Origin: Planctomycetota bacterium
GTDB taxonomy: Bacteria; Planctomycetota; Phycisphaerae; WQYP01
Length of the DNA: 38,188 bases
Assembly (NCBI GenBank): GCA_021785435.1
Contig: JAJYFE010000024.1
Location: 1 to 38,188, forward strand
Direction: 5' to 3'
Positions 2,709 through 25,699 of this stretch are shown here, in pieces. How positions within the stretch are numbered: the first letter of the stretch is position 1; every line of letters starts with the position of its first letter. Made by a program: the position numbers and the translations under genes. The notes below the pieces were generated by a model, which was not told where the DNA came from, ran no database searches, and saw nothing but the letters and a program-made list of their open reading frames with translations.

Positions 2709-5038
2709 CCATCTGTGGATTGTTGGGCTACGCGGTTTGGCCCTCCCATGCGGATCACCAACAACGATACGCTCCAGGCGGCAGCCGGCCGCGCAAAACG
2801 CAAATGTCCACCGTCCCAGGCGAATGGCGCCGGCTCCGCCAAGAGACCGCGCGCCCGATCATAGGTTTCCATCGCTGCGTGGCGCGGACACGGGAGGTTG
2901 CGCCACAGAATATTCAGTGGCATGGGATCGAGCGACAGGTTCGCCACCCCGAGCAGCACCGCGCCTCCTGTTTGCTTCCAAAATGGCGCCAGGTTGGCGG
3001 CGCCGACCAATCCAAGGAAGGGCGCCGCCGGAGCGAGCCAGGCCAGGATCGCATGCATCTGGCGCTGGCGGTGATAATTGCGGAATTGAACCGCCCGGAG
3101 GGTTTCGGTTTGACCATCGTACGGCAGCACCGCCACACGACCGCCCCACTCATTTTCAAACAGCACGATGCCGGGACCGAATTCCGCCGGTTGGCCAATC
3201 TCGTCCCCCCAAAGCAGACGCGAAATCGTGCAGGCGGCAGGATCAACCGTGAGATGATGGATGTTGCCGCCCATATGACGCAGGGGCATCCGCACGCCGC
3301 ACTGCCCACCGAACGCCGGGTCCAGGATTTCTTCCGCGCCCACGGCGCACCGGCCCGCGGCCTGGCCAACCGCCACGCCGACCAATCGCCCCAACCCGCG
3401 CAAGGCAAAGCATTCCGCAGCCGTGGCGTCGAGCAACAATGGCCCCCGTAACCACTGGCGCAGCGTCTCTTCGTCGACCGCCAGCGGCAGGTCGCCGCTG
3501 ATGGCCATCGGCAGCGCGTTTTCCCGGCGCGTGACTGTCCCATCGCCATGACGCACCGTCGTATGGGCGATGGGAATTCCCAACTGGGGCAGGCACGTCT
3601 CCCACGCCCGCTGGACAACGCATCCCTCAGGCGACAAACCTTGACTGCGGCTGAAATCGGAGACGCGTTCGACGAGGGGCACATTCACGCCGCGCAAGGG
3701 GCCTGCGGCCAGACCCGCCTCGGCAAGTCGATCGAAATACCTCCGCGCGTGCTGGAGCAGCGCCGTGTTCGCCGGTTCTTCCTCCAGCTCCGGTGAGGAA
3801 AAGCTGTGCAGATCCAAGGTTAATTCAGGACTTACGCAAAAGTATGACAACGCCATTTGCAACCGCAGATGCGCCGCCGATTTATTGAACCGGGTGAAAG
3901 GCGAACTCTCCAGTTCCGGCGCGATGCGCGTTTCAGGAGGCAGCAGGGCGCATGTCGTCAGCGCCAAGGCCAGTCCCTCCATGGCTTCGCCGGCGGAAAA
4001 CTCCCGGTAGCATCCGAGGCACGGGCGGGACATTGGCGTGCGTCCCGCCCCCGCCAATTTCCGCAATAGCGGATGCCACAATCGTCCCTCCGCCGAATGC
4101 ACGGCTGGCGCGGAAGACATTAATCCGACGGTCGTAGCCGGCGAGGTGGCGTGAATCGCCTGCTCAAATCTTGTCGCGATGGCCTCGAAGGTCTCGCGCA
4201 GCAACTCGTGCCAGACCACGCGCTCCGGCGGCGCACGATCCCCTGAACCTTCCGCCATAGAGGACACAGAGCTCGCAGAGGGTGCGGAGCCGGGCTTTGG
4301 CGGCGCGCCCGCCGGTGATTTCGCGCGGACACAATCAAGATCGGGACAACACTCTACGCCGCCCTTATTGCTCTGCGGCTTCTGTGTGCTCTGTGGCTCG
4401 GCGTTGAGAAACGCAGGATCAGCCGGGGCATAGACCAGCCTGAGCAGTTCCTCCCGAGAGACGGTCCGGCCGATTTTCCGCCCGAAAAGCTCCAGGTGGT
4501 CCGGACAGTAACAGCCCCAGGCGACCGGATAATGGTTGTGCCAACGAAAATCGTCATCGAGCAGGATGTAATCCGGCTGACAACGCGCATAGATAGACAG
4601 GACTTGGGCCATATGTTCCTGCCACCGCGTATCGAGAGGGCAGGGCGAACGCGCAGACATCGCGCCGTCGTGGCCGACCATGGGTTGCCAGCGGAATTCG
4701 GCGACGGAGGAAAACGCCGCGTCATGGTGGCCCAGCGTTTGCCAGATATTCAGGCCGAATTCAATCCCCGCCGCCCGCAGCGCCTCGCCGCAGCGTATCA
4801 CCATCGCCGCATATGCCTCGGCTTCCGGCAGCGTGCGATGCCGCAGGTGCAGATCGTGCGACTCCGTGTGAATCATCACGGATTCAATGCCGCAGCGGCG
4901 GCAGTATTCCACCAGTTCGGGAATCCGCTGCGCGGCGTTGTACGCCATCAGACAATAGCGCAGCAGGTAGCGGCGGGCGGGTGGAGCAGCAGCTGGGAGT
5001 ACCGAGGGTGTGGCAGGAGCTGCCGAGGTGTCCTTCAT
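2624..5038 (-). CDS. Unassigned TIM-barrel-like (glycosidase-like) protein
   Basis: I do not recognise a named family. The 804-aa protein begins, after a Pro/Ala-rich stretch, with a region that looks like the first strands of a TIM barrel (LVEYCRRCGIESVMIH, GIEFGLNIWQTLGHHD, PDYILLDDDFRWHNH). An acidic LLDDDFR motif and a GCYCPDH motif are plausible active-site or metal-binding elements. The C-terminal third looks like beta-sandwich sequence. ATG 5038 overlaps the sulfatase stop as ATGA, so the two are probably translationally coupled. Two oddities are visible. Residues about 214-262 are encoded by a 144-bp inverted-repeat element, and the last 28 or so residues are encoded by interspersed repeat copy 1. 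Context suggests a polysaccharide-degrading role; this is inference. Confidence 0.7.
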   Translation of the reverse strand: MKDTSAAPATPSVLPAAAPPARRYLLRYCLMAYNAAQRIPELVEYCRRCGIESVMIHTESHDLHLRHRTLPEAEAYAAMVIRCGEALRAAGIEFGLNIWQTLGHHDAAFSSVAEFRWQPMVGHDGAMSARSPCPLDTRWQEHMAQVLSIYARCQPDYILLDDDFRWHNHYPVAWGCYCPDHLELFGRKIGRTVSREELLRLVYAPADPAFLNAEPQSTQKPQSNKGGVECCPDLDCVRAKSPAGAPPKPGSAPSASSVSSMAEGSGDRAPPERVVWHELLRETFEAIATRFEQAIHATSPATTVGLMSSAPAVHSAEGRLWHPLLRKLAGAGRTPMSRPCLGCYREFSAGEAMEGLALALTTCALLPPETRIAPELESSPFTRFNKSAAHLRLQMALSYFCVSPELTLDLHSFSSPELEEEPANTALLQHARRYFDRLAEAGLAAGPLRGVNVPLVERVSDFSRSQGLSPEGCVVQRAWETCLPQLGIPIAHTTVRHGDGTVTRRENALPMAISGDLPLAVDEETLRQWLRGPLLLDATAAECFALRGLGRLVGVAVGQAAGRCAVGAEEILDPAFGGQCGVRMPLRHMGGNIHHLTVDPAACTISRLLWGDEIGQPAEFGPGIVLFENEWGGRVAVLPYDGQTETLRAVQFRNYHRQRQMHAILAWLAPAAPFLGLVGAANLAPFWKQTGGAVLLGVANLSLDPMPLNILWRNLPCPRHAAMETYDRARGLLAEPAPFAWDGGHLRFARPAAAWSVSLLVIRMGGPNRVAQQSTDGPARVAGATKLRRQPKYTAPGPHGGGIV
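4254..4397. repeat. 144-bp MITE-like element inserted in frame in a CDS
   Basis: The ends are imperfect inverted repeats of 28 nt (left gccatagaggacacagagct..., right gctctgcggcttctgtgtgc...; 22 of 28 positions pair). The CTCTGTG-type arms resemble a repeat seen in many bacterial genomes and also at 29442-29483 here. The length of 144 nt is exactly 48 codons, so the host reading frame stays open, and it encodes a low-complexity Ser/Pro/Ala-rich insert with three cysteines. Confidence 0.7.
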
Positions 5039-6603
5039 TTCGCCGGCGCTCCTATGTTTCCTGACCCAACCAATTCACTATTGCCAACCTGGCGGTTGAC
5101 CCCCGATCGCGCGGCTAGGCTTTGGTGGGTTTCCGGTTCCAAGCTTCTTATCCGATCACGGTTTGGCTCGGGGAACTCGCCGGCATGCGGGTGTTCCCGG
5201 TACCAACGCGTGGGAGGGTGAAGCTTCCGCTCCAGTTCCCACCCCAGCGGTTGCTCGGTGCGGATCGTCCAATCCAGCAGTTCGCCCAGCAAACGTCCCT
5301 GCACGCCGGCGTAGCCGGCCTCGCCAAAACGATTGATCCGTTCTTGCGGATCGTTCTGGTGGTCAAACAGCTCACAGTAATTTTCGCCCGCAGTACAGTA
5401 GGTCAGCCGATACCGCCGAGTGCGAATGCTCTTGGTGAAGCAGGTGTCAAAGAATACCGCTTCTTTCGTGACCGGAATTGGACCCGGGCCGGAGGCGCTG
5501 TACCGCAGCGCCTCGGCATAGCTGGCTCCCTGGACCGAGCAAGGAACCGCCGCGCCGACCAGTTCGCAAAGCGTGGGAAAGATGTCGATATTTTCCACGA
5601 AGGAATCGATGCGCTCGGGACCGAAGCGCCCTTTCCAGTACCAGACGGTGGGAATCCGGTGCAGGCACTCAAAATGGCCCAACGTGTTTTTACCAAGCAT
5701 ACCGTACTCACCGGCGAAATCACCGTGGTCGGAGTTGAATAGAATGATCGTATTTTCAAGGATGCCGCGTTTCTCGAGGTGCTGGAGAATTCGTCCAACC
5801 CCATCATCGACAGCTGTACACATTCCGTAATAATGGGCCAGCGCTTCGCGGTATTTCGCCTCGCCCACCACGCCGACGCGCCAGGCATTCTCGACTCCCA
5901 TTCGAACCGCCCCCGGGCGCAAGCTCAAGGCATGAAGATCGGCCCCCTCGCAATGCCGAATGGCGGACAGGTCAAGCGCCTCGGGGGCATAGAGAAACGG
6001 GCTGTCGAACGAGTTGCAGTAGGGTGGATGCGGAGCGCTGAAGTTGCACCATATCAGGAATGGCTTGGCGCCGAGATCATCGATTTTGCGAATCGTGGTG
6101 TCGGCCACCCAGACCGGCTCGCTGTGTTCGTGGGGCACCTGGCTGGTATAAGCCATAAGGTCGGCAACCTGGGCGTGGTACTCCCGGGTGAAGGTCTTAC
6201 GCCAGCCGACCTTCTCCAGGTAAGTGCGGCTGTAACCGCTCCACACTTCGCCGGTGTCGCTCTGGAACGGTTCCCGCGTCCACTTGGCATAATGCTTCTT
6301 TCCCACGAGCGCGGTCGAGTAACCCAGCTGATCGTGCAGCACCTGGGGAAAAGACAGATAGTTTGCGGGCAATGGAATCATCCCGGCGTACACACCGTGG
6401 GTGTGCACGTACCGGCCGGTCAGCATGGATATCCGCGAGGGAATACACTCCGGCGCGCACGAATAACTCCGCTGGAACGAGACTCCCTCCCGCACCAGGA
6501 CGTCGATGTTGGGCGTGCGAACCTGGGGCCGCTGGGCGCCGCTAAAGCAACCCGCGTGATGTTGGTCGTCCGTGATGAACAAAATGTTGGGGCAGGACGC
6601 CAT
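5035..6603 (-). CDS. Sulfatase (arylsulfatase A-like, formylglycine type)
   Basis: The protein is a type I sulfatase that would hydrolyse sulfate esters, here most likely on a carbohydrate. It shows the N-terminal metal site PNILFITDDQHH, the maturation signature CIPSRISMLTGRY with Cys about 53 as the residue converted to formylglycine, GKKHYAKW, and the second metal site NSDHGDFAGEYGMLGK. Length (522 aa) is normal for the family. No clear signal peptide is seen, so it may act in the cytoplasm or leave by another route. Two ATG codons lie in tandem; I prefer 6603 because AAGGAG is 5 nt upstream of it but only 2 nt upstream of 6606. The stop overlaps the next gene by ATGA. A sulfatase beside fucosidases points to sulfated fucans or a similar glycan. 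Confidence 0.95.
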   Translation of the reverse strand: MASCPNILFITDDQHHAGCFSGAQRPQVRTPNIDVLVREGVSFQRSYSCAPECIPSRISMLTGRYVHTHGVYAGMIPLPANYLSFPQVLHDQLGYSTALVGKKHYAKWTREPFQSDTGEVWSGYSRTYLEKVGWRKTFTREYHAQVADLMAYTSQVPHEHSEPVWVADTTIRKIDDLGAKPFLIWCNFSAPHPPYCNSFDSPFLYAPEALDLSAIRHCEGADLHALSLRPGAVRMGVENAWRVGVVGEAKYREALAHYYGMCTAVDDGVGRILQHLEKRGILENTIILFNSDHGDFAGEYGMLGKNTLGHFECLHRIPTVWYWKGRFGPERIDSFVENIDIFPTLCELVGAAVPCSVQGASYAEALRYSASGPGPIPVTKEAVFFDTCFTKSIRTRRYRLTYCTAGENYCELFDHQNDPQERINRFGEAGYAGVQGRLLGELLDWTIRTEQPLGWELERKLHPPTRWYREHPHAGEFPEPNRDRIRSLEPETHQSLAARSGVNRQVGNSELVGSGNIGAPAK

Positions 6604-6767
6604 CATTTCTCCTTAATCGACGACGAGGTCGGCGTAGTCTTTCCCAAGAGAGCCGGCACCCAGTCGGTATGCCGCGACCCTCCTGGCCCGCCCGTGGTCG
6701 CGGCGAGGATACCCCGCGTCGCCCGGGACATTGTCGGGCGGACCATAACCGAGGTGGTATTGTGGCA

Positions 6768-8426
6768 TTACTTTGTTTCCTGTACCAGCTTCACACCGCC
6801 GGTTTTTTCGGAAAGTTGATAAAACGCTCCTCCCTCTGGAACATTCACGCTTATCGCCCGGTAGCTTGGAATGCTGATGCGCACGCTGTTGCGCTGACCC
6901 ATAGGGGCTTCGGCGTAGACCAGCCATTGGCGGTTGGGCGCCGGGCCGCGGGTCAAGGCCAGGGACATCACCGGGATGGTGGTGGACAGGGTCCATGGTT
7001 GCTTCGGATTGCAGGTGGCCTGAAGCAGGAACCAGTGCTTGTTGCCGCGAATTTCCCGGGATGCTCCGCTTTCAGCGGTGCGTCGGTGCACGACCAGCAG
7101 TTTTCCGTGGCGCCACCATTGACGCAGAATCCTATTGTGGTATATGCGATCCACCGCCGCGACCAATGCCCTAAAGTACGGCGATTTTTCCATGGCCCGA
7201 GAGGGGGGAATCGCGAAATAACGCACCGCCCGCGGGCGCAGCAGCCACATTCCAAATTGCACGAAACCTTCGTACCGCACGGGGGTGAACGGTTCACCCA
7301 TGCGGGCAAAATATTTGAGTTTATCCGTCGCCGCCGTGGCTTGTGGCGCCGGATTGTGTCCATCCCAGGGGGATATTTCGTACCAGAAAGATGGATTCAG
7401 GCGGTACATGGCTGGCAGTTGCAAGGCCAGGTTCATAAAATCAATTTGCGGACTTAAATCGGTGTAATAAGTAATGGGATTGGAAGCGTCCAGGTAATAG
7501 GGAACGTCCCCTCCATCCCACATCAAGGGAGCGATATCGACTCGTCCCGGAATATACATGGAAAACTTCAGCCAATACGGCCAGTAGGCGGTATTGCCAG
7601 CATTATAACCGATAATGACCAAGTGTTTTTTCCAAGCTGGTGCGACCAGGCTGTTCCGCATGGTCTTATGCAACATACGGTAGCGTGTGATCCAGCCGTC
7701 GCCCGCCACTTGTTTCTTGAAGTAATCGTCGCGCCCCCGGCCATACCGGGTGAGATACCGCCGGTCCTCCGGCGCCTGGGACCAGACCAACCGGGGCGCC
7801 TCGTTGTCAAAAAGGAAGATCACCCGGGGCGGATTGGGGTACCATTGCTGAAGTTTCTCCATGGCCGCATTGCGTATCCACAGGCGTCCCACGTTGCGCC
7901 AGGGTTGGATCGCACCGAAAGGTGAAACCTGATGGAGCACTTCCCCCTTGGCGGTGACCACATCGGGATTTTGTCGCGGCGGCAGGCGCCAATAGGCTGG
8001 TGACGTCGCTAACTCGCCCACCGGCCCCCAGGAACCGATGTTGAGCAGACAAATCGGAAGCTTTAATTGCCGCGCCTGTTCGAGCGGCCTCTTGTAGTAG
8101 TTAATAAACGCCTGGCTGTAATAACTCCGGGGGTTGGGATGCCCGGGAAACGCGAAGCTGGGCAGTAGAAAATGGCCTTGCTGGATCAGCCGCAACTGAG
8201 CCCCGGGACCCCAACCCTCGCGTGTGATCCAGCTGCAGGCCAGCGGCAGGGGACGGCCCCGCTTGCTGAAATTGGGACGCGTGGCTTCGGCGCGAATTTC
8301 ATTAGCCACAGCGCGGATGGCCGCAGCCGGTAATTTATTGTTCGCGGCCGTAGCACGGATCGGCCATGTGAGGATGCCACCAACAAATAGAATGCCAGCG
8401 GAGAATAACGAGATTGGTTTTGGCAT
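6768..8426 (-). CDS. Secreted protein of unknown family (possible glycosidase)
   Basis: A 552-aa protein with an N-terminal Sec signal (MPKPISLFSAGILFVGGILT, cleavage probably near ATAA). The body is rich in aromatic residues and contains strand-like motifs VIFLFDNEAPRLVW and DIAPLMWDGGDVPYYLD and a basic patch YLTRYGRGRDDYF, which would fit a TIM-barrel carbohydrate enzyme, but I cannot assign a family. The start is supported by GAGGAG 6 nt upstream. It sits between the pseudopilin and the sulfatase, in the same relative position as the large secreted glycosidase of the sister cassette at 17087-20749. The 164 nt to the sulfatase start contain no gene. Confidence 0.8.
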   Translation of the reverse strand: MPKPISLFSAGILFVGGILTWPIRATAANNKLPAAAIRAVANEIRAEATRPNFSKRGRPLPLACSWITREGWGPGAQLRLIQQGHFLLPSFAFPGHPNPRSYYSQAFINYYKRPLEQARQLKLPICLLNIGSWGPVGELATSPAYWRLPPRQNPDVVTAKGEVLHQVSPFGAIQPWRNVGRLWIRNAAMEKLQQWYPNPPRVIFLFDNEAPRLVWSQAPEDRRYLTRYGRGRDDYFKKQVAGDGWITRYRMLHKTMRNSLVAPAWKKHLVIIGYNAGNTAYWPYWLKFSMYIPGRVDIAPLMWDGGDVPYYLDASNPITYYTDLSPQIDFMNLALQLPAMYRLNPSFWYEISPWDGHNPAPQATAATDKLKYFARMGEPFTPVRYEGFVQFGMWLLRPRAVRYFAIPPSRAMEKSPYFRALVAAVDRIYHNRILRQWWRHGKLLVVHRRTAESGASREIRGNKHWFLLQATCNPKQPWTLSTTIPVMSLALTRGPAPNRQWLVYAEAPMGQRNSVRISIPSYRAISVNVPEGGAFYQLSEKTGGVKLVQETK

Positions 8427-8478
8427 GATGGGCTCCTCATAAAATAGCGTCCAGTTTCCAGCAATCGGCCATCAACAA

Positions 8479-8700
8479 TCAGATTTCGATAATCCCAACA
8501 TTGGGTTTCGCCGGCGTTATCGGCGGTCGCGTCACGGGGGCGCCGCGGGTAACGCCATGGCCTTTTGCTGTCAGCGCACCAATCACCGGACCGGTTCTGA
8601 TATCCAGCAGATGCAACCTGATTCCGGAATTAATGATCCACTGCCTCGCCGTAGCCCGTCTCCCGTTTTTCACTTTCGCGGCGCGGCGGCGCCTCACCAC
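8479..8700 (-). CDS. Possible small basic protein coupled to the pseudopilin gene
   Basis: A 73-codon ORF begins with tandem GTG codons; the second forms a GTGA overlap with the stop codon of the pseudopilin gene. The product starts with a very basic segment ([15 protein letters not shown]) and continues without low complexity ([20 protein letters not shown]). No Shine-Dalgarno site beyond coupling and no homologue recognised. It may be a chance ORF; no counterpart of similar sequence was found after the second pseudopilin. Confidence 0.28.
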
Positions 8701-10160
8701 GCTTTGCCGCTGGCCGCGGTGGTGGGATTTACCGTGCGCACTGGAACCATGCAGGTATCAAACGGCGTCGCCAGCGTTTTAATTTGGGGAAACGCCGCCG
8801 TCGTGCCGGTTCCCGTAAGGCCCATCTGGTGAGTATCGGTGGTACCGTTGACCGGTGTAACCGTGTTGCCGCTGTACAAATGCCAAGTGTAAATGTTATC
8901 CCCATTCTGGCCCGCATAGGGTGAGATTTCCCATGTCACGTGATCGTCGCCGAAGCCTACGTTTTGGCCGTCACCGGCATGGTTGCCGGAGTTATAGATA
9001 TACGGTCCAAAGGTGTTGGTTGTCGGCAAGGTGGTGGTGATTCGCTGGTAGATACCCGTGATATCGCCGCCGGCGGGGGAATCTATCGGCGCCATATCGC
9101 TGACCAAGGGGACCTGGCTGTTCGCCCCGGTGGTAGTCCACCACTGACCGAACCCCTGCAGCGTCCCCGGGGGGACGTACTTGGTCCAATTTGGAAACGC
9201 GATGGAATAGCTTAACCCCTGGCCGTAGGGATTGCTGTTGCCGCTCCCGACCATCTCGCCATTTTTATAGCCTGCCACGCCACCCCAAAGGTTGTTGTAC
9301 TGGAGGCCCTGGTATACGGAAAAGGCCTGCGATGGACCGGCCCCGAGGGGATCGGAGGGGCAAATGAAGCTGCCCGGCGTGGTATAGCCCTGGAGCACTA
9401 GAAACCACAGCCCCGCGGTGGGAACGTTATACAAATAGCTCACTGCGCCACCGGTATACCACGCCTGCACGACCTCCTGGGGCGTCCTGGCCTGGTAACC
9501 TTGCAGGACGACATTGGCACCGCCGATCAGGGAAATCTCCTGGCCGTTGTCGTAACTGTCTGTACGCTGGCCGGTGCGGTACAGATAGGGAAACACACCT
9601 TGGTTGCTCTGCCCGTATGTGAGCATCGCCTGGATGATCCCGCGGATATTGGCCATGCACACGGCCCGGTTGGCCAATTCCCGGGCCTTGGCCAAGGCTG
9701 GAAGTAATATAGATATCAATATAGCTATTATTGATATCACCACCAGCAGCTCGATCAGCGTGAACGCCAACGCCGCCTTGAAGCGGGCTTTCCGCGACCG
9801 GAAAACACACGGGTCCAACGCCATCTGGAAGCCCGCCAGCACCCCCAGCGCTTCGCCGATGGACAGGACCCCGATGGCGAACGCCATAAGCCCCGCGTTC
9901 AACACGGCGCCCATCCTTGAAATCACTTTCTCCGTGGCCAGCCCCACACTCTCGACCCACACGCTTACCACAGCAACTAGGGAAGACCCTAACGATCGAA
10001 GACCCGCCACGGCGAACTTGATACCTTGTCGCACTTTCATGGGAAACTCCTGTAAAAAGTGGTCCAGAATCTTTACGCCAGCCGTCGAGGGCGACGGCGC
10101 CGCAGAGCGCGACGGCTCCACAGGGGAACCGAAGAGAGATCTTGAACTATTGTGTGCCAT
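8694..10160 (-). CDS. Pseudopilin-like protein with H...DG motif, long N-terminal extension
   Basis: The core has the type IV pilin/pseudopilin signature [21 protein letters not shown] followed by [21 protein letters not shown], and a C-terminal [19 protein letters not shown] motif typical of the planctomycete/lentisphaeral DUF1559-like pseudopilins. It is paralogous to 20859-22031, including the end [15 protein letters not shown]. Function in this family is not established; surface display near carbohydrate enzymes is a reasonable guess. Three starts compete: ATG 10160 with AGGAGG 6 nt upstream, ATG 10040 with AGGAG 6 nt upstream, and ATG 9824 with no good site but giving a normal 20-residue leader. 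The upper starts add a hydrophobic region ([20 protein letters not shown]) in front of the pilin leader. The segment between 10160 and 10040 overlaps a GGCGACGGC repeat. Confidence 0.85.
10080..10126. repeat. CGTCGAGGGCGACGGC-type short repeat, copy 1
   Basis: The sequence gccgtcgagggcgacggc followed by gcgacggctccaca is shared with 14761-14802, where it is intergenic (ccgtcgagggcgacggctct). Here it lies between the two best start codons of the pseudopilin gene and is translated if the upstream start is used. Confidence 0.6.
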
Positions 10161-10324
10161 AAAGCACCTCCTTATTATGCGCCCCGCGAAAGCCTGGCCC
10201 CGAATCACATGACCCGGTATAAGCCGGCATCCATTGGGGCGAAACAAATACCGTTTCCTCACGCGAAGCCGCGAAGCCCGCGAAAATACCTTTTTTTAAT
10301 GCTCCCTTGACATCCTTGCCGAGT

Positions 10325-11470
10325 TCACTCCGCTGCAACCATTGCCCCCGGGTTCTCTAATTCATCCTTCACGCTCTTCGCGACTTCGCGCAGGCTGTTC
10401 TCCGGTTGCAGCAACTCGCACAGGATCGCCACGTGGGGGTTCGCCACCGGCTCGCGACGCATTAACTTGATGAGCATTTCCCCCAGCACGCGGACGTAGT
10501 GATCGGGATCGAACCGCAGCCTCGCCACGGGAAATGGAACCGCCATAGGCGAGCCTTTGTTCCAATGTGTGACCACCGACAGGTCTTCCGGTACGCGAAT
10601 GCCAAGCTGACAGATGGCCATCGCGGCGCCGGGAAACAGGTTGTCGTCGCCGATGAACAGGCCGTCGGGTTTCTCGCGGCTGCTGACCCATATCGCCCGC
10701 AGTTCTTCCCACCCCGCGCCCGGAGCGCAGGGAGTCAGGCTGTGGCGGATCCACTGCGGGTTGGCCTGCACCCCGGCGGCCGAAAGCGCCGAGTAAAAGC
10801 TTTCCAGGAATATGGCCGCTTCTTTTTCCCTCAGCTGGGCATACCTCATCAGGGCGATGCGCCGCCGACCCTGGCGTAGCAGATACTCGCCGCCCATGCG
10901 GCCTAGCGCTCCGCTGTCCGGTTCAACCCGGTAGGCGCACTTATCACTTGGGCCGATCACCGGGATATGCTGTTCGCGCCACGCCTCACACCATTGGGAG
11001 AAAGTGTGGCCGGGTGCGAAGGCCGCGACTCCGTTGAGCTGATGACGTCCGAGGGCTTCCAGGAATTCGACGCAGGTCAGCGGACGGGGGGAATCTTCAC
11101 CGGCCGGCAGATGGCCGGCGTATAGCCGCGCGGGGACTCCATGGGCAAGCAGAAAACGCACCACCTGCTGTGGGGTGCGGCGATAGAAATACGACGTCCG
11201 CGGATCAGAAATGTCCACTTCGGCTAAGACGCCGACATGCTGCCTCTTGCTCCGATCGCGGACGTACGTTCCGCTGCCGTGGCGCTGTTCGATGAGACCC
11301 TCCTGAACCAGCATGGCCATGGATTGGGCCACGGTCAGGGAACTGACCGAAAAACGTTCCGCCAACTCGCGGATGGAGGCGAGGCGCTCGCCAGCGCTGC
11401 GCTTCAATATTTCGCCGCGAAGAATGGCGGCGATCTGGTCTCGGACGTTTTTTCTGATTACTTGTGCCAT
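10325..11470 (-). CDS. GntR-type regulator with LacI/periplasmic-binding-like effector domain (A)
   Basis: The first 75 or so residues form a GntR winged helix (ASIRELAERFSVSSLTVAQS, then EGLIEQRHGSGTYV). The rest resembles the sugar-binding-protein fold of LacI-family effectors (ARLYAGHLPAG..., GLFIGDDNLFPGAAMAICQL, GIRVPEDLSVVTHWN). Such proteins usually bind a sugar or sugar acid and repress or activate nearby catabolic genes. It is clearly paralogous to 22423-23589; both share HVGVL.E.DISDP.TSYFYRR. ATG 11470 is chosen; the ORF track uses GTG 11476, which is also possible, and the ribosome site is weak for both. A consensus promoter lies upstream, followed further out by a degenerate second copy of the promoter and gene 5' end. 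It is the first gene of cassette A. Confidence 0.9.
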   Translation of the reverse strand: MAQVIRKNVRDQIAAILRGEILKRSAGERLASIRELAERFSVSSLTVAQSMAMLVQEGLIEQRHGSGTYVRDRSKRQHVGVLAEVDISDPRTSYFYRRTPQQVVRFLLAHGVPARLYAGHLPAGEDSPRPLTCVEFLEALGRHQLNGVAAFAPGHTFSQWCEAWREQHIPVIGPSDKCAYRVEPDSGALGRMGGEYLLRQGRRRIALMRYAQLREKEAAIFLESFYSALSAAGVQANPQWIRHSLTPCAPGAGWEELRAIWVSSREKPDGLFIGDDNLFPGAAMAICQLGIRVPEDLSVVTHWNKGSPMAVPFPVARLRFDPDHYVRVLGEMLIKLMRREPVANPHVAILCELLQPENSLREVAKSVKDELENPGAMVAAE

Positions 11471-11522
11471 TTCCACTCGCTTAGTCGGCCTTCGGCCCTT
11501 TTGAGCTCAACCTTAAACCCAT

Positions 11523-11651
11523 TTAGTGAATTATACACTTTGTGCACACGTCTGTCAAGTGTCGTCTCACCTGTTTCTTCGCCCATCGCCGCACCGAGCG
11601 AAGGATGGCGGCGATCTGCTCTCCAACGGTTTGCCTGATTACCTGTGCCAC
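11523..11651 (-). pseudogene. Truncated duplicate of the regulator 5' end
   Basis: Reading from GTG 11651 gives VAQVIRQTVGEQIAAILR, which matches the regulator N-terminus MAQVIRKNVRDQIAAILR, and then diverges to reach a TAA at 11523. The equivalent of the regulator ATG is GTG here. The ORF (42 aa) runs through the proximal promoter. It is most simply a remnant of a tandem duplication, though it could be translated as a leader peptide from the distal promoter. Confidence 0.7.
11530..11558 (-). promoter_or_regulatory. Consensus sigma70 promoter of regulator A (proximal)
   Basis: On the minus strand TTGACA (11558-11553) is followed by a 17-nt spacer and TATAAT (11535-11530), matching both consensus hexamers exactly. 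The -10 region sits inside AGTG-tataatt-CACT, an imperfect inverted repeat that is conserved in the distal copy, so it is a candidate autoregulatory operator. The spacer contains tgtgcaca, an 8-bp palindrome that is not conserved in the distal copy. Confidence 0.85.
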
Positions 11652-11700
11652 TTCCACTCGCTTCGCCTGTACTGGGCGCAACATTGAACTACATTAGTGA

Positions 11701-11729
11701 CTTATACACTATCTGGCTGCCGCTGTCAA
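11701..11729 (-). promoter_or_regulatory. Second sigma70 promoter of regulator A (distal duplicate)
   Basis: TTGACA (11729-11724), a 17-nt spacer and TATAAG (11706-11701) on the minus strand mirror the proximal promoter 171 nt away. The TAGTG-tataagt-CACTA inverted repeat over the -10 box is preserved, while most of the spacer has diverged. Survival of the promoter elements despite spacer divergence suggests selection. Confidence 0.7.
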
Positions 11730-11774
11730 GTATCGTATCATCTATGGTGTGGCCGGATTTTTTTTGGGGGGGGC

Positions 11775-16959: not shown

Positions 16960-17090
16960 GGAACCCTATCCCCCTTGGCCCGGTAAAGCCAGTGTTCGAT
17001 ATCGGCTTTGATTTCCAGCCCCGGCGAAACGGTCCAAAGCGAATGGATGAAGCCTATGTCGGAGAAACCCCACCGGGGTAACTTCGTCAA
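16950..17090 (-). CDS. Possible 46-aa ORF between secreted glycosidase and GHL6 gene
   Basis: Too short for the ORF track. TTG 17090 overlaps the TGA of the large secreted glycosidase, with GGGAG about 9 nt upstream, and the frame ends at TAG 16950 inside the start of the GHL6-like gene. The product is protein-like and Trp-rich (WGFSDIGFIHSLWTVSPG, then EIKADIEHWLYRAKGD), with codon third positions about 70% GC by eye. It may be a small coupled protein, a remnant of a longer gene, or chance. Confidence 0.25.
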   Translation of the reverse strand: MTKLPRWGFSDIGFIHSLWTVSPGLEIKADIEHWLYRAKGDRVPWD

Positions 17091-20000
17091 CCGCCCCTGC
17101 TCCCGAGTACTAAGATGCCGAACTTTCCAGGATTTTTGCTGGGATAGATACCGCCGAAAATTCCGAGCGCCAACGGATCTGGCTGTCTGGGGTTGTTAAT
17201 GTGGTTGATAGTTGCTGCGATTCCAATGCAATCGCCGGACCGCGGTGGGCGTCGCGCCCCTAAGGTCGTCCAGGGAACCGCGGCTTCGTAAACCAAGCTT
17301 CGTCCGCGGTGGATCACGGCGAGCGGCAAGGCGCCGGCTGGAATCGGACCAATCGGAAATCTCATCCTATCGAAGGTGATCGTGCGATACGCCTGGGGAC
17401 CATCTTTCGTCAGCGCCAACGTGAGCTCACTGTAGCGTCGCCGCGAACCCCTGTCGGCCACTAAATTGCCGGTTTTCACAACTGTTTTGTACGGATCCAG
17501 GTCGAACCCCAATTGAAGGCAATCCCCTCTCCACGTATCGTATCCAGTGTACGGTTGACAGTATGTGCTTTCATGAACTTTATAGGCCAGATACAGCGCG
17601 GCGGCGTTCCAAGCATAGCGCGCCGTCGCTGAAAGGTCTGCCGTACCGGTATAGAATTGCGGCGAGCGCACCACCCATTTTCGCCCGCGAAGTTTCACCG
17701 GTGGAACTCTCCGCCATGGCGCCAGGTCACCGTCAATCCGGAGCGCCGTGTGGAGGTACGGAGCCTGCCAGAAATTGACCGGGAAGCTATGTGTAAACCG
17801 ATATCCATCCACACCCGCCAACACCAAGGCCGCGTGGTACATCCTGGCGCGGCGCAGTTTCCTTCCCTTAAGCGCGGCGATGAACGACCACGATTTATCT
17901 GCCTCTACGTGAAACGGAGCTTCAACCGAACTGCCGGCGACGCCGCGTAACGCCAAGTCCAGTGTCCCCGCGCATTTGCCGCCGACGACGTCGGCCAACG
18001 TGATATCCAGAGCTGGGGTACCCTTGATAAATCCCGGGCGCACACAGAGATGGAGAGGACGTTTGATACACAACAGCACGCCGTCAACGCCAATCACGGC
18101 AGTTCGAGTTTGGAGTGTCGCTACAAGGCCGTAGCTCCCCGGCACCGCGTGGGCGGGAATGGACAGTCTGTAGCGAAAGGTTTGACGGCCGCCGGCCGGC
18201 AATGAAACGGGGTATTCCATCGGCTTAGCGCCCAACGGTGTGTCGGGTGCTAACGTAATCACGCCCCGCACCGGCCGGCCCCGGTGCGAGCTTAGCTCGC
18301 CGATGATTGTCACTCTGCCGCCGGGATATCCAGTCACGTGGTGATGCTGAAAGCGGATAGTCGGCCCGGCCGCGTTTCCCCACATCGCGAGGGATACCCC
18401 TTTCACATAGGTCGGTTCGCCAGTCAAATGCAGTTTTAACGTTCCACCGACAGATCGAACCGTATGCCCATTGCCCATCCAGTCGTAGACCGTAACCCGC
18501 CTGGTTCCCACAGGCAACGATACGGAATGCCGCTGCGCACCATACTTCCACAAAGCGAGGATAACCTCCTTACCGCGCCGATAGGCATAGCCGAGCGTAT
18601 CACCGCCGAGCCACTGAATCGCCCTAACCGGCCGGTACCCCGTCAGCAAGAACGTCATGGCGGCGTAAGCCGGAGCGGCAGGCTTCGGGCCAACTTTATC
18701 CGGATACCAGGCCACATGCGGCGTGAGATTGTAGTAGAGGCCATAGTCGCCGCCAGGCCCTCCGGGGAAATCGACGAGGTAAAACGCGTAATTGCACTGG
18801 AAACCTTCCCCCAACATAATAAGATTCTCTCTCACCAACCCCTGCGCCAGATCCAGCTCTCGACTCTCGTGCCCATCGGTAGAAAACCCCTGTTCGGTTC
18901 CAATCATGGGAAGGTGCTTGCCCGTGTACTTGTAAATAGCACGCCGGATGGTCCTGACGGCCTGCACCAGACCGCTCTTCTCCGGGGGAAAACTCGCGTA
19001 GGGGTGAACCGAAAAACCATCCAGATATTTGCCCAACCCTTCCTTCAGCAGCCGAATAGTGGCGCCCACGTCGGGAACGGCTCCGCCGAACGTCGGCCCG
19101 AATACCACGGCTTTTGGATCGGTGGCATGGAGTGCCTGGTAGGCAATTTTATAGATGCGTATCAGTTGCGCATCGGTTCCCTTAAATCCCCAGGGATAAT
19201 CCGGCTCCCAAGTGACCTGGTAAATGTGCCAGCCCCCCCGCCGGTTCGCGAAAATCCTCCCCACCTGCCGACAGTAGGCAGCCCAAGCCGCCTGCCCCTC
19301 CGGCGTCAATGCTGCGGTGCCACTGCCACGTGTCTGTGCAATCGTGGCCCAACGCGGCGGACTCGCGTAAAGGCTTAATATTGGCGCGTACACTTTCCAT
19401 TGCTTGGAACCGCCGACATTTTGGCTCCCAGCCCACCGCAGCTGGCTCCGGAGGAAAGCCAACCGGGCAGGCAGCCCTCCCGCCTTCTTCGCTGCCGCCA
19501 GGCTCGCCGCGAATTGACCGGCCCGGTGTGGCTCCATCTGGCCCCAGTCGCATCCCCCCCCTACCAGCCGATCCCCCAAATATGGCAGAACATCCGCATC
19601 AGCCGTGCCAGAAATGCCAAAAAAGCTGTCTCTGAAGGGTAAAAATGGTCGCTTCGCGGGGTCCGGTACAATGCAATACGTCAGATAGCCCGCCGGGCGG
19701 GATCCCACGCGCGGCAGTGTCACACCATCGGACAACCGGACATACACGCGATAAAAACCAAGCCGCTGGCTCGGGGCGGCGATCCCGGCCGTCCAATTGC
19801 CGTGCGCGTCCGCCGCCACGCTCATACTTTCTCGGCGTACCAAATGGCCGTTGGCTCCGACAATCTTGATAAGCACGCGCAGATTTTTCTTTAGCGGCTT
19901 ATCCCCGCGCACGTGCAGGACCAAGCGGACCGGCTCGCCGAAACTAAAAGTCCCCGTCGCAGGATGCGTGGTATCGGCTTGCAAGCTAACGCCTTGAGCG

Positions 20001-20749
20001 TCCAAAAGCTGGGCGGGCAAAAACGCCGTGTCTGAAATGCGAACCTCATCGATAATTCCAGGAAAGCAAGCACTATCTGAGGCGATGGGGTACCCGCGCC
20101 CGATCGTCGCGGCACCGTCGCTTTTCCCGACAAAGTGGGGAAATGCGCCCGTCGCGACCGGTAATCCGTTTACGTAAAGCTTGGCGGTGGCACCGTCGTA
20201 GGTAGCCGCCACGTCATAATTGACGCCCGTTTTAAACTTCACGGGCGCCTTGGCGACACAGACCCCATGGAGGTAAAGCGCTAGACCATTGGAAATCCCC
20301 CGCCCCGTGTCGTACAGAGCGAAAACGACGCGGCTGCCCTGAAAGATCACTTTGGCGCCCGCCACCGGCGTTGAAGTTAACCGAATGGACGCCTCAATGG
20401 TAAATTTTCCACCGATCAAGCCCTTGGCGGCGGGTCCAGCGAAGAGTATTCCCCCCTGTGCACCGATCCGGACAGCAAAGTGGTTCGCCGCACCAGTTCG
20501 CGGAACCACCTTGTTAAATGGCGTATTCACGTAAATCGGCGAACCAATGGGCACTCCGATGCGATTGTGACCCGAGGAATCGTCCACGAATCTAAGCGGT
20601 TGTCCGTTCACCACCGCTCTTCCGCCATCGCTCTCAAAACGCCAATACCCGACTGAGGCGCCTTGTAAGCGGGCCGAGAGGATCAACATCGCAGCTGTCG
20701 CCAAGAAGGTCAGGTTGTTCCGTAGCCGGCCCGGACCACGTGAAGACAT
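17087..20749 (-). CDS. Large secreted multidomain glycoside hydrolase (GH-A clan-like)
   Basis: About 1220 aa. A Sec signal (LTFLATAAMLILSARLQGAS) leads into a LamG/concanavalin-like sandwich of about 230 residues (VGYWRFESDGG ... FPGIIDEVRISD). A clan-A TIM barrel of about residues 380-740 follows, with acid/base candidate Glu near 515 in VTWEPDYPWGF and nucleophile candidate Glu near 619 in MIGTEQGFS, reminiscent of GH39 or GH5. Beta-rich domains come next, then a C-terminal CBM9-like domain (LRIDGDLAPWRRVPP, WRGDCLQLGFDLDPY, ending GKFGILVLGSRGG). It is probably the extracellular depolymerase of cassette B. ATG 20749 has AGGAG 7 nt upstream; the track start at 20812 has no support. The exact family and substrate cannot be fixed by eye. 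Confidence 0.85.
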   Translation of the reverse strand: MSSRGPGRLRNNLTFLATAAMLILSARLQGASVGYWRFESDGGRAVVNGQPLRFVDDSSGHNRIGVPIGSPIYVNTPFNKVVPRTGAANHFAVRIGAQGGILFAGPAAKGLIGGKFTIEASIRLTSTPVAGAKVIFQGSRVVFALYDTGRGISNGLALYLHGVCVAKAPVKFKTGVNYDVAATYDGATAKLYVNGLPVATGAFPHFVGKSDGAATIGRGYPIASDSACFPGIIDEVRISDTAFLPAQLLDAQGVSLQADTTHPATGTFSFGEPVRLVLHVRGDKPLKKNLRVLIKIVGANGHLVRRESMSVAADAHGNWTAGIAAPSQRLGFYRVYVRLSDGVTLPRVGSRPAGYLTYCIVPDPAKRPFLPFRDSFFGISGTADADVLPYLGDRLVGGGCDWGQMEPHRAGQFAASLAAAKKAGGLPARLAFLRSQLRWAGSQNVGGSKQWKVYAPILSLYASPPRWATIAQTRGSGTAALTPEGQAAWAAYCRQVGRIFANRRGGWHIYQVTWEPDYPWGFKGTDAQLIRIYKIAYQALHATDPKAVVFGPTFGGAVPDVGATIRLLKEGLGKYLDGFSVHPYASFPPEKSGLVQAVRTIRRAIYKYTGKHLPMIGTEQGFSTDGHESRELDLAQGLVRENLIMLGEGFQCNYAFYLVDFPGGPGGDYGLYYNLTPHVAWYPDKVGPKPAAPAYAAMTFLLTGYRPVRAIQWLGGDTLGYAYRRGKEVILALWKYGAQRHSVSLPVGTRRVTVYDWMGNGHTVRSVGGTLKLHLTGEPTYVKGVSLAMWGNAAGPTIRFQHHHVTGYPGGRVTIIGELSSHRGRPVRGVITLAPDTPLGAKPMEYPVSLPAGGRQTFRYRLSIPAHAVPGSYGLVATLQTRTAVIGVDGVLLCIKRPLHLCVRPGFIKGTPALDITLADVVGGKCAGTLDLALRGVAGSSVEAPFHVEADKSWSFIAALKGRKLRRARMYHAALVLAGVDGYRFTHSFPVNFWQAPYLHTALRIDGDLAPWRRVPPVKLRGRKWVVRSPQFYTGTADLSATARYAWNAAALYLAYKVHESTYCQPYTGYDTWRGDCLQLGFDLDPYKTVVKTGNLVADRGSRRRYSELTLALTKDGPQAYRTITFDRMRFPIGPIPAGALPLAVIHRGRSLVYEAAVPWTTLGARRPPRSGDCIGIAATINHINNPRQPDPLALGIFGGIYPSKNPGKFGILVLGSRGG

Positions 20750-20858
20750 TGGGGTTCTCCTTGCTGGTCTCCCTTTTTCGCCCGAACCGACCACCGTGCC
20801 GATGGCGATCACTGGCTACCGGTATGCCAAGTTGGCTATTGTTGTCGGCCACGCGAGA

Positions 20859-22031
20859 TCACCACGCACCACCCGTGCCAAGAAGCGCCTTGGCAGCGGT
20901 GGCGGGGTTCACCGTGCGCACCGGCGTCATGCAGGTGTCAAACGGCGGAGCCAGCGTACGAATCTGTGGCGAGTAGGCGTCGTAGTAAGCACCCCCAAGC
21001 CCCACTTGGCTGGTGTCCGTGGTTCCGTTGACCACACCTGTAGCGGTGGTGTAGGTGAAAATGTTGTCGCCGTTCTGGCCCACGTAGGGCGAAGTTTCCC
21101 ACGTCACGTGATCATCGCCGAAGCCGACGTTCTGGCCATTCCCGGCGTGATTACCGGAGTTGTAGATATACGGACCATACGTGTTGGCGGTGGGTAGAGT
21201 GGTGGTGATGCGCTGGTAAATGCCCTCCCCCGGCCCATCACCTCCAATTAGAAACGGTCCTCCGGTGGCGTCCGCCGGCGCCATGTCGCTGACCAGCGGA
21301 ACCTCGCTGGTGGCGCCATTGGTAGTCCAGTACAGGCCAGGCAGCGAGGACATGCCCCCTTCCCATGGCCATGGGAAAGCAAAGGAATAACTCAGCCCCT
21401 CACCACTCTGGTTGTAGACGCCGGTCCCCGATAGCAATTTCGGAGGTATGCCGCCGAAGTTGGCATTGTAGTATCGCGGCGCCCCCGCCCAAGGTATTTC
21501 GTACTCCGCCGAAGCACCTGCCCCACCACCGATGGCATCCGACGGGCAGATAAAGCTGGCCGGGCTCGTATAGCCCTGCAGCACCATGCACCATATCCCG
21601 CCCGTCGGAACCACGTTGTCCGCTTTGATGTACCACCCCTGCACGATCGACATCGCCGTGGGCGGAGTATGGTACTCGTAGCCGGGATAACCGCTCATCG
21701 GTGGGTTGGAGTATACACTCCAGCCGGGCGTGGTCATCACCCCCACCGGCAGCACGCCGTTGTTGCTCTGGCCGTACGTGATCATCGACTGGATGATCCC
21801 GCGGATGTTGGCCATGCAGACGGCCCGGTTGGCCAGCTCGCGGGCTTTGGCCAAGGCTGGCAGCAGGATTGAAACGAGAATCGCGATGATCGAGATGACC
21901 ACCAGCAGCTCAATCAGCGTAAAACCGCGGTTTCTGGTTTCCGGTTTCCGGTTCCTGGTCAGCAACGTGGCGCACATGGACAAAACCACTCCCAAAATTC
22001 CGCCTTGGTTCTTTGTTTTTCCGCCTTTCAT
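20859..22031 (-). CDS. Pseudopilin-like protein with H...DG motif (B)
   Basis: A 390-aa paralogue of the cassette A pseudopilin. The leader ends RNRG and is followed by [20 protein letters not shown], the prepilin peptidase site and membrane helix, then [21 protein letters not shown]. The globular part carries [11 protein letters not shown] and the C-terminal [22 protein letters not shown] 22031 has AAGGAG 6 nt upstream, an ideal site. The end of the leader (NRKPETRNR) is encoded by a GGAAACC-type simple repeat. It is 109 nt upstream of the secreted glycosidase, so cotranscription is likely. Function of these pseudopilins is unknown; cell-surface assembly or substrate capture is a guess. Confidence 0.9.
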
Positions 22032-22422: not shown

Positions 22423-23589
22423 TCACACTTCAACCATCTCCCTGTCCGCCATCCGGGTTTCCTTCGCGCTCTCCGCGGCGCGGTTTAGTCGCCGCGGCGA
22501 CCGTGAGCTATCCTCCGGTTCCACCAACTCATGCGGGAGCAGCACCGGCGCTTCCGGCACCGGCTCGTGCCGCATCAGTTTCAACAGCGCCGCCCCGGCC
22601 GTCCGGGCGTAGCCATCGGGATCAAACTCCAGTTTCACCACCGGAAACGGGCAGACCATGCCCGAACCATGGTTAAAGTGCGTCACCACCAGCAGATCCT
22701 CCGGCACGCGGATACCCAGCTGCAAAATGGCCATCGTTGCGCCGGGAAAAAGATTGTCGTTGCAAATCAGCAGCGCGTCCGGTTTCTCCCGCCCTTCCGC
22801 CCAGATCGCCCGGAATTCCTCCCAACCCGCCTCCGGGGCGCAGGGAATGCGGCTGCGGCGAATCCAACGCTCGTTAACCGCCACCCCGGCGGCCCCCAGC
22901 GTCGCCCGAAAATTCTCCACAAATCCCGCCTGCCGATCCGCTGGCCAGCGGTATTCCATCAGGGCGATGCGCCGCCGGCCATGGCCAAGCAAATAATCAA
23001 CCCCCGTCCGCACCAGCGCGGTGGAGTCCCAAATCACGCGGCGCGTGCACTTTTCGCTTGGTCCCACCACGGGAACCCGCTGCTTTTCCAACGCCCCGTA
23101 CCATTGGGGAAAAGTCTGGTCGGGCGCGAACGCCACCACGCCGCTAAGCCGGCGGCTCTCGATGGCCTCCAGAAACTCCGTGCAGGTAAGCCGGCGGCGA
23201 ACCGCATCGCGCGGGCGCAGATGGCCGGCGTACAAACGGGCGGCGGTCTGGTTTTCACGCAGAAACCGCACTACCTGCTGCGGGGCCCGGCGGTAGAAAT
23301 ACGAAGTCTGTGGATCCGAAATATCTTCTTCCACCAGCACGCCGACGTGTTGGACTTTCGTCAGGTCGCGGACATACGTGCCGCTGCCGGTACGGCGTTC
23401 AATCAGGCCTTCCGCCTCCAGCACGCTTAAGGATTCACGCACGCTGGGCGAGCTGACACCGAAACGTTTGGCGATGGCCGCGATGGAGGGCAATTGTTGG
23501 CCCGGCTGGTACTGGGCGAATATTTCATCGCGCAAACGCTGGCTGATTTGCTGCGAGACACTCGGCCTCTGTAACGTGTCATTCGTCAT
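22423..23589 (-). CDS. GntR-type regulator with LacI/periplasmic-binding-like effector domain (B)
   Basis: A 388-aa paralogue of regulator A. The GntR winged helix covers residues 1-75 or so (LPSIAAIAKRFGVSSPSVRES, EGLIERRTGSGTYV). The effector domain includes ARLYAGHLRPRD, ALLICNDNLFPGATMAILQL and GIRVPEDLLVVTHFN. It should control cassette B and probably itself in response to a sugar. ATG 23589 has AAGG 8 nt upstream. Two promoter-operator units lie upstream. The last 25 or so residues (after EPEDSS) are Arg/Glu-rich and are encoded by DNA carrying the GTCGCCGCGGCGAC palindrome at 22488, so the C-terminal tail seems to come from a repeat insertion. Confidence 0.92.
   Translation of the reverse strand: MTNDTLQRPSVSQQISQRLRDEIFAQYQPGQQLPSIAAIAKRFGVSSPSVRESLSVLEAEGLIERRTGSGTYVRDLTKVQHVGVLVEEDISDPQTSYFYRRAPQQVVRFLRENQTAARLYAGHLRPRDAVRRRLTCTEFLEAIESRRLSGVVAFAPDQTFPQWYGALEKQRVPVVGPSEKCTRRVIWDSTALVRTGVDYLLGHGRRRIALMEYRWPADRQAGFVENFRATLGAAGVAVNERWIRRSRIPCAPEAGWEEFRAIWAEGREKPDALLICNDNLFPGATMAILQLGIRVPEDLLVVTHFNHGSGMVCPFPVVKLEFDPDGYARTAGAALLKLMRHEPVPEAPVLLPHELVEPEDSSRSPRRLNRAAESAKETRMADREMVEV
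22488..22501. repeat. GTCGCCGCGGCGAC palindrome within the 3' end of regulator B
   Basis: A perfect 14-bp palindrome with the same GTCGCC/GGCGAC core as at 62-75, 2685-2698 and 12094-12107. It is located within the C-terminal codons of the regulator gene. Confidence 0.6.
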
Positions 23590-23635
23590 AGCGAGGGCCT
23601 TACAGCTCCATTATAATTACTGCCACCAAGTTTAC

Positions 23636-23686
23636 AAGTTGCTTGGCAACTTATCACATCCTACCCACATACAAAAAGAAAGTCAA
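23636..23686 (-). promoter_or_regulatory. Proximal promoter-operator unit of regulator B
   Basis: On the minus strand TTGACT (23686-23681), a 17-nt spacer and TAGGAT (23663-23658) are followed immediately by the perfect inverted repeat AAGTTGC-caa-GCAACTT (23652-23636). The operator would cover the start site, as expected for repression. A further TATAAT (minus strand, near 23612) with TTGTAA 16 nt before it may form another promoter closer to the gene. Confidence 0.7.
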
Positions 23687-23715
23687 GGCCACATAATCAC
23701 CGCCATCGTATTAAC

Positions 23716-23766
23716 AAGTTGCTTGGCAGCTTGGGTTATGGTAACCCCGCACGAAAATAAAGTCAA
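23716..23766 (-). promoter_or_regulatory. Distal promoter-operator unit of regulator B
   Basis: The same layout repeats exactly 80 nt upstream: TTGACT (23766-23761), a 17-nt spacer, TACCAT (23743-23738), then AAGCTGC-caa-GCAACTT (23732-23716), with one mismatch in the operator. Flanking bases such as ttgacttt and the stretch after the operator are also similar, showing that the unit was tandemly duplicated. Confidence 0.65.
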
Positions 23767-23923
23767 GCCAATTCCATAGGACTTTTTAACCAATTTATTC
23801 TACTTTCAGGCGCATCGCACGTCACGCCGCAGCCGCCTGCCATGGCGAATGATGGACAAGAATATCTTAAATGTGCCATCACCGTGCCGAACAGGATGGT
23901 GGATGTCACCCTTGCGCGGTCCG

Positions 23924-25699
23924 TCATACCCTGGGTGTAACCGGCTTGGCGGGAACCTCGCTGAATATGTCCGGCAAAATCTTGCGCGTTTCTTCGCGCA
24001 AAAAGCCTATAACCTGCTGGGTATGTTCAAAGCCCAGCGTGCGTTGCGCCACCTGACGTGCGTGCCGGGCATTCATGCTGCGGATGACCTTTTTAATTTC
24101 GGGGATATGCTGCGGCGCCACGGAAAACTGGCGCAACCCCAGACCGACCAGCAGCAAGGTGAAATCGGGGTCTCCGCCCATTTCTCCGCACAGCGAGATG
24201 GCTCGGCGCCGGCTGCGGGCGGACCAGATCACATTCTTAATCAGCCGCAGGACGGCGGGATTGGCGGCGCTGTAAAGCGAGGCCACGCGCTGATTGCCGC
24301 GATCCACCGCCAACGTATATTGAATCAGGTCGTTGGTGCCGATGGACAGAAAATCACAGTCCCGGACATACGGCTTGGGCAGCAGAGCGGTGGACGGCAC
24401 TTCCACCATCATTCCGACCCGCAGATGCGGATTGTAGGGGATATTTTGCTCGTCCAACTCCTCCATCGTGTCCTTGAGGACCATTTTCGCCTGGCGCAAC
24501 TCCAGGGGTGTGGAAATCAGGGGAAACATCAGCCGCAGATCCCCCCGCGTGCTGGCCCGCAGGATCGCCCGCAATTGCGTCTTGAAGATACGCAGATTAC
24601 CCAGACACAAGCGAATCGAACGGAAGCCCAGAAAGGGATTGGCTTCCGGAACCTGGTCCTGAAACGGCGAGTATTTATCCGCGCCCAGATCCAGGGTGCG
24701 GATGACCACCGGGCGCTGGCCCATGCACTGCAACACGCGGCAGTAGGCCGCATAATGATCTTCCTCCGTTGGTTCATGCCCTCCGGCCAGGTAGAGAAAT
24801 TCCGTGCGATACAGACCGATACCCATAGCCCCCTTGGCCAGCGCGGTATCGACTTCATGCGGGAACTCAATGTTGCCAAACAATTTGATGTCCACGCCGT
24901 CCTTGGTGCGGGCGGGCAGATGACGCATGGAATCCAACTGGGTGCGGTACTGCACCTGCCGCTGTTCGTATTTCTGATGCTCCTCGATGGTGGCGGCATC
25001 CGGATCGATGATCACCACACCGCTGTAACCATTGACCACCAGCACATCGCCAGTGGTTACTTCACGCGTGAGGCTCTCGAGTCCCACCACCGCGGGAATG
25101 CCCAAGGAATTGGCCAGAATGGCGGTATGGCTGGTGCGGCCACCGGCTTCGATAGCGATGCCCCGCACCTTGCTTTTATCCAGCGAAGCGGTTTGGGATG
25201 GGGTTAAATCATGGGCGACGATGATGACGGGTTGATCCGTCGGCTCCAAACGGATTTTTTCCGCCCCCATGAGGTGTTGCAGCAGGCGGCGCTCCAGGTC
25301 GTATATGTCCTTAACCCGCTCGCGGAAATAGGCGTCCGGGTGCTCGGTAAAATGCTTGCCGTACTCGCGTAACGCCCGGCGCACGGCGAATTCGGCGGAG
25401 TGGCCATCCCGTTCAATCCCCTGGCTAAAGGCAGTCTGCAGTTGCGGATCGTTCAGCAAGGCCAGATGAAAATCGAAGATGGCGGCCATCTCCTTGCCCA
25501 GGTTGCGGCGGGTGCGCTCGCGCAGATCTCGCAAATCGTCGCTGGCGGCGGTCAAGGCGGTCCTAAGCCGCTGTTGCTCGGCGGCGACTTCGGCCAACGT
25601 GATGGCCCGCCGCCCAATGCGAATTTCATCATTGTCCAATAACAGGGCTGGACCGATGACGACACCCGTCGAAACGCCAATCCCTTTTTTCAATTCCAT
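23924..25699 (-). CDS. ptsI: Phosphoenolpyruvate-protein phosphotransferase (PTS enzyme I)
   Basis: A 591-aa enzyme I that transfers phosphate from PEP to HPr. The N-terminal HPr-binding/phosphohistidine domain contains GGRTSHTAILANSLGIPAVVG with His about 191 as the phosphorylated residue. The C-terminal PEP-binding barrel has GIGLYRTEFLYL, MMVEVPSTALL, DFLSIGTNDLIQYTLAVDR and ISLCGEMGGDP with the catalytic Cys. Length is normal. The ribosome site before ATG 25699 is weak. No ptsH or enzyme II gene is in the window, so here it may serve a regulatory PTS or partners elsewhere. About 330 nt with regulatory sites separate it from regulator B downstream. Confidence 0.96.
   Translation of the reverse strand: MELKKGIGVSTGVVIGPALLLDNDEIRIGRRAITLAEVAAEQQRLRTALTAASDDLRDLRERTRRNLGKEMAAIFDFHLALLNDPQLQTAFSQGIERDGHSAEFAVRRALREYGKHFTEHPDAYFRERVKDIYDLERRLLQHLMGAEKIRLEPTDQPVIIVAHDLTPSQTASLDKSKVRGIAIEAGGRTSHTAILANSLGIPAVVGLESLTREVTTGDVLVVNGYSGVVIIDPDAATIEEHQKYEQRQVQYRTQLDSMRHLPARTKDGVDIKLFGNIEFPHEVDTALAKGAMGIGLYRTEFLYLAGGHEPTEEDHYAAYCRVLQCMGQRPVVIRTLDLGADKYSPFQDQVPEANPFLGFRSIRLCLGNLRIFKTQLRAILRASTRGDLRLMFPLISTPLELRQAKMVLKDTMEELDEQNIPYNPHLRVGMMVEVPSTALLPKPYVRDCDFLSIGTNDLIQYTLAVDRGNQRVASLYSAANPAVLRLIKNVIWSARSRRRAISLCGEMGGDPDFTLLLVGLGLRQFSVAPQHIPEIKKVIRSMNARHARQVAQRTLGFEHTQQVIGFLREETRKILPDIFSEVPAKPVTPRV

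Follow-up and report, generated by a model that had tools for sequence, protein, structure and literature searches.

Predicted autoregulation through tandem promoter-operator units at a GntR/LacI-type regulator gene of a planctomycete

Why would a bacterial regulator gene be preceded by two copies of the same promoter, each joined to a copy of the same palindrome? The question arose at regulator B, which lies in a stretch of 38,188 nucleotides from a Planctomycetota bacterium (contig JAJYFE010000024.1; here, the window). Its upstream region, read on the minus strand, is flanked by a ptsI-like gene (positions 23924 to 25699) and the gene of B itself (22423 to 23589). Inspection of the sequence and a promoter scan placed the distal promoter, TTGACT-17-TACCAT, at 23738 to 23766 on the minus strand (−35 at 23766-23761, −10 at 23743-23738), with the operator copy AAGCTGCCAAGCAACTT at 23716 to 23732. 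The proximal promoter, TTGACT-17-TAGGAT, occupies 23658 to 23686 of the same strand (−35 at 23686-23681, −10 at 23663-23658), with the operator copy AAGTTGCCAAGCAACTT at 23636 to 23652. The original prediction of two TTGACT-17-TA(GG/CC)AT units exactly 80 nt apart was borne out in all elements, on the minus strand and with an offset of 80 bp, and so was the expected quality of the 7-3-7 dyads, the proximal one being perfect and the distal one carrying one arm mismatch. The dyad had been described as following the promoter at once; it does follow, with a gap of 5 bp past the −10. At both units it takes the common form AAG(C/T)TGCCAAGCAACTT, starting about 5 bp past the −10.

The −10 hexamers of these two promoters (TACCAT and TAGGAT) are mediocre, which we counted against the mechanism proposed below. 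The top promoter match of the region in the scan (10/12) was an additional candidate, TTGTAA-16-TATAAT, at 23610 to 23637 on the minus strand, whose −35 overlaps the end of the proximal operator. A decayed counterpart, TTGTTA-16-TATGTG (23690 to 23717, minus strand), was recognized in the distal unit from the sequence and the alignment of the units. Each unit may comprise a pair of promoters flanking the operator, which would cover the transcription start of the leading promoter and the −35 of the following one. A second dyad, GGGTTA-CCA-TAACCC, covers the distal −10 (23731-23747 of the window) and is absent from the ortholog in the related genome G001. Randomization confirmed that the two tandem promoter-operator units are real and nonrandom: in none of 3,000 dinucleotide shuffles of the 400-bp region did a pair of 7-3-7 dyads agree at ≥14 of 17 positions (16 in the actual sequence), and by an independent score the direct repeat upstream of B exceeded 200 of 200 shuffles. 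The dyad couple is the sole repeated 7-3-7 pair of such similarity in the window.

Regulator B (388 amino acids) combines, according to Pfam, an N-terminal GntR winged helix-turn-helix (HTH) domain (residues 12 to 73; PF00392, 8.3e-19) with a C-terminal sensor of the LacI/periplasmic-binding type (Peripla_BP_3; residues 197 to 357; PF13377, 1.1e-20). Its AlphaFold model (mean pLDDT of 80) matches the structures of CcpA, RbsR, and PurR. B has both domains that characterize the GntR/LacI chimeric regulators of AraR-like architecture. It is followed on the minus strand by a gene for an N-methylated pilin-like protein (20859 to 22031; PF07963, 2.6e-8) and a gene for a 1,241-aa LamG-domain protein (17087 to 20812; PF13385, 1.7e-15), which is glycosidase-like by reading and has a CBM9 match below the cutoff (PF06452, 1.7e-4). 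The minus strand showed no strict promoter between B and these two genes, and the pilin-like gene is probably read from the B promoters. The pilin-like neighbor is also present in G001, and similar neighbors occur at several paralogs.

We consider it probable that a regulator-first operon begins here with a self-regulating control region, in which B would repress each promoter of the tandemly duplicated promoter-operator units until released by a ligand. As a dimer, B would bind its own operator immediately past each −10, where it would sit on the transcription start. The operator would also cover the −35 of the further promoter, and bound B would stop initiation at all promoters. In addition, the proximal copy would stop polymerase arriving from the distal promoter. 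A small ligand, probably a sugar, would release B, after which several strong sigma-70-type promoters would transcribe B together with the pilin-like gene and the polysaccharide-active genes. The two units would have originated by tandem duplication of the promoter together with its operator.

Pattern searches and family searches were run on the 4.4-Mb genome of the window (G000). The claim that the window holds no other operator copy proved true up to 2 mismatches, and throughout the 4.4 Mb no further site was found at ≤1 mismatch. Genome-wide sites with 2 mismatches were rarer than in the reversed-pattern control. A degenerate search with 3 mismatches gave counts not above that control, and thus no additional targets of the operator can be claimed. 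From its position, uniqueness, and conservation, we infer that B binds its own operator. At the sequence level, B resembles the autoregulated local repressors in that its operator lies at its own promoter and further targets are few or absent. The proposal of a private operator holds with respect to genome-wide uniqueness and conservation in the ortholog, while the exact 17-bp site is uncertain.

The source of that uncertainty became apparent from G001, a Planctomycetota metagenome bin and the only same-genus comparison (the genus sample consists of two genomes, one of them 69% complete). The G001 ortholog of B shares 90% protein identity and an identical recognition helix. Both units are kept there, spaced by 81 bp instead of 80 bp, and the core AAGYTGCCAAGYARCTTG and the −35 element CTTGACTTT are invariant across the four units (two species with two copies each). 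The −10 is CAAAAT in the distal and TATATT in the proximal G001 unit, and the place of the additional promoter is taken by TTGGCA-16-TATAAT (distal) and TTGGCA-16-TACCAT (proximal). The G001 distal unit contains a perfect dyad, TTGCCAAG-n3-CTTGGCAA, centered 4 bp downstream of AAGTTGC-n3-GCAACTT; the G001 proximal unit has TGCCAAG-n3-CTTGGCA on the same downstream axis. The constant core fits either axis. Since the axis of the perfect dyad differs by 4 bp between the orthologs, the exact operator and its center are ambiguous. Three operator positions tend to match within a species and to differ between the species (four sequences), which is only a hint of a concerted change of the operator copies.

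In the unit alignment, whole units were 68 to 74% identical between the orthologs, and the flank upstream of the units was about 89% identical, as counted on the alignment. Across positions 23589 to 23930 of the window, the units diverge faster than the seemingly idle upstream flank. The possibility that this conserved flank encodes a peptide was considered and rejected: a short frame is open in both species, but most changes would replace amino acids (judged by eye).

The original prediction also supposed a mechanism shared with regulator A, a paralog about 58% identical to B (10325 to 11476, minus strand), and this was supported. A has its own repeated dyad over two −10 elements: the proximal promoter TTGACA-17-TATAAT (11530 to 11558, minus strand) is overlapped at its −10 by AAGTGTATAATTCACTA (11524-11540), and the distal promoter TTGACA-17-TATAAG (11701 to 11729, minus strand) by TAGTGTATAAGTCACTA (11695-11711). 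The repeat AGTGTATAAKTCACTAA is present twice. A partial tandem duplication extends over 11476-11730 of the minus strand, with a copy of the promoter, the dyad, and the gene start (GTGGAAGTGGCACAGGTAATC...) upstream of A. A leads a co-directional run on the minus strand (233-11476) with a pilin-like gene, a sulfatase gene, and a gene for a GH95 enzyme, and this run resembles an operon devoted to a sulfated polysaccharide that contains fucose.

The same design is found at many other GntR/LacI regulators. The B paralogs of G000 are about 48 to 78% identical to B, and most have upstream TTGAC-type promoters, often two or three. Twenty of the 47 genome sites with ≤1 mismatch to TTGACA-17-TATAAT precede, within 400 bp upstream, GntR/LacI-type or LacI genes (16 genes; the 20 include C109, a weak 101-aa match). 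Promoter pairs 53 to 83 bp apart gave 10 matches in G000, 4 in G001, and 0 in the reversed-pattern control, and only control-level counts were obtained for 99 further genomes from the family and class. Every G000 pair precedes a GntR/LacI-type or LacI regulator; the four G001 matches represent three loci, which match C110, C213, and C61 of G000 in sequence. Regulators with an N-terminal HTH were compared with those that join the same sensor to an AraC HTH at the C terminus. The promoter was present at 20 of 25 versus 1 of 9 (Fisher P = 0.0005) and doubled at 10 of 25 versus 0 of 9 (Fisher P = 0.03); in these counts, C213, whose start is misassigned, was included manually, and C202 was excluded because its contig ends. 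None of 60 other genes had a promoter pair, with some of these loci chosen for having a promoter, a bias against our conclusion. About half of the B-type paralogs have just one strict promoter, and some paralogs (C104, C223) have no clear dyad.

Recognition helices vary among the paralogs, and so do the repeats beside them. At C144, a LacI gene, TTCAANCGNTTGRA occurs three times, once after each promoter; GCAAGCGCTGGC occurs three times around two promoters at C168; and two copies each were found of TGTTTGATACATACTTGACAACAT at C190 and of TGACTRGTCAACTTGACA at C246 of G001. LacI-family operators usually have a CG-centered form. The C144 repeat is CG-centered, which we take to be this typical form, and this supports regarding the locus repeats as operators of the adjoining gene. 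At C110 (minus strand), four tandem promoters precede a GntR/LacI regulator, the promoter pair being duplicated as a 181-bp block that includes approximately the first nine codons and leaves a short truncated upstream reading frame. The duplications at C110 and A make tandem duplication the likely source of the units. They are unequal in extent between the A family and C110, and a "common design" may for this reason conceal separate histories.

Related arrangements were seen elsewhere. Two pilin-like (N-methylated) genes are preceded by repeated promoters, one (C11) with a 163-bp duplication containing TTGACAAAGCA..GGCTTGACTGT.TAAT and the other (C50) with three promoters, each followed by GAATGTCA. 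Dyads accompanied by a third half-site, 8 bp farther along, were found at C141 (TTGAGC-TGCTCAA-CAGCTCAA) and C229 (TTGATC-TAATCAA-TGGATCAA); the proximal B operator of G001 has a third half-site too, on the opposite strand.

Doubling might serve DNA looping and not promoter number. AraR of Bacillus subtilis, the same kind of GntR and LacI-type chimera, represses its two-box promoters cooperatively with a small DNA loop (PMC4218819), and B likewise has two palindromic operators in one promoter region, on which dimers could join and loop out the 80 bp. AraR, however, needs its operator boxes in helical phase (PMC4218819), and the 80 and 81 bp of the B orthologs correspond to 7.6 to 7.7 turns (assuming 10.5 bp per turn). 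Most of the spacings observed (80/81, 88, 90, 67/69, 57-59, 74, 148, and 171 bp) are far from whole turns. Together with the 1-bp shift between the orthologs, this makes looping less likely; moreover, looping does not need a duplicated promoter, yet the promoter is duplicated too. We regard cooperative looping as rather unlikely and favor independent steric repression at each promoter. An accident of duplication that left a functionless second copy appears improbable. Tandem duplications do recur in G000, carrying even the gene start along at C110 and A, but two species keep both copies of the B unit, with the −35 and the operator core retained while the units differ by about 30% overall, and doubling is concentrated at repressors and absent from the 99 relatives and from AraC-type regulators.

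Position by itself cannot name the binder, and the sites could belong to another, global regulator that has the B gene merely as one target. Such a factor would be expected to have sites elsewhere, yet the genome holds none at ≤1 mismatch, and paralogous regulators carry different repeats, as self-recognition predicts; this leaves very little probability for a global regulator. Slighter still is the probability that the dyad works in RNA, as a 5′-terminal leader hairpin that stabilizes or attenuates the mRNA. Transcripts would indeed start near the dyad, and both G001 copies form a stem of about 9 bp, but the folding energies are not beyond those of shuffles (z of 0.04, 0.40, −0.77, and −1.44), the G000 copies fold differently, and no Rfam family matched. 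The repeats of several paralogs, furthermore, cover the −35 or −10 and lie outside the transcript.

The doubled or tripled promoters before many repressors of the genus suggest a standard switch for self-control. We see an even chance that this amounts to a rule of the genus: regulator-first operons would be built by tandem duplication of promoter and operator, sometimes with the first codons, giving every paralogous repressor an operator of its own across two to four promoter copies, which would stay alike within a genome and diverge between species as a natural series of operator-repressor coevolution. One genome offers roughly two dozen candidate pairs of repressor and operator, in which paralogs with similar sensors have different recognition helices and private operators. 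These candidates are well suited to studies of the specificity code of GntR-type HTHs, and orthogonal inducible switches for planctomycetes might be drawn from them; common inducible systems failed in P. limnophila (PMC11958385). They also raise the question of why one genus, unlike its relatives, multiplies whole promoter-operator units before its repressors.

In the open-access literature, we found no description of whole promoter-operator units in tandem as a genus rule, no paper on GntR/LacI regulons in planctomycetes, and none on multiple-operator tandem promoters of such regulators. Several serial promoters with repeated operators under one repressor are usually a feature of a single locus, whereas here the arrangement recurs at many unrelated operators of one genome, a different operator each time. 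In a comparative study of LacI-family regulators, over three quarters of those acting locally were autoregulated (PMC4052901). B would likewise be a self-controlled repressor of a sugar operon; those repressors have a LacI HTH, whereas that of B is of the GntR type. With AraR of B. subtilis, B shares the chimera of a GntR HTH and a GalR/LacI-type sensor, palindromic operators at promoters, the presence of two boxes as at some AraR promoters, and a link to polysaccharide use (PMC4218819). The B operator, with the core AAGYTGCCAAGYARCTTG, does not conform to the operator of AraR orthologs, At(T/A)tGTaCGTAcaa(A/T)T. AraR boxes are 16 bp long and common to five promoters, with araR itself having one box, whereas the B operator is private to its own operon, and, unlike in AraR, promoter and operator are both duplicated at B, out of helical phase.
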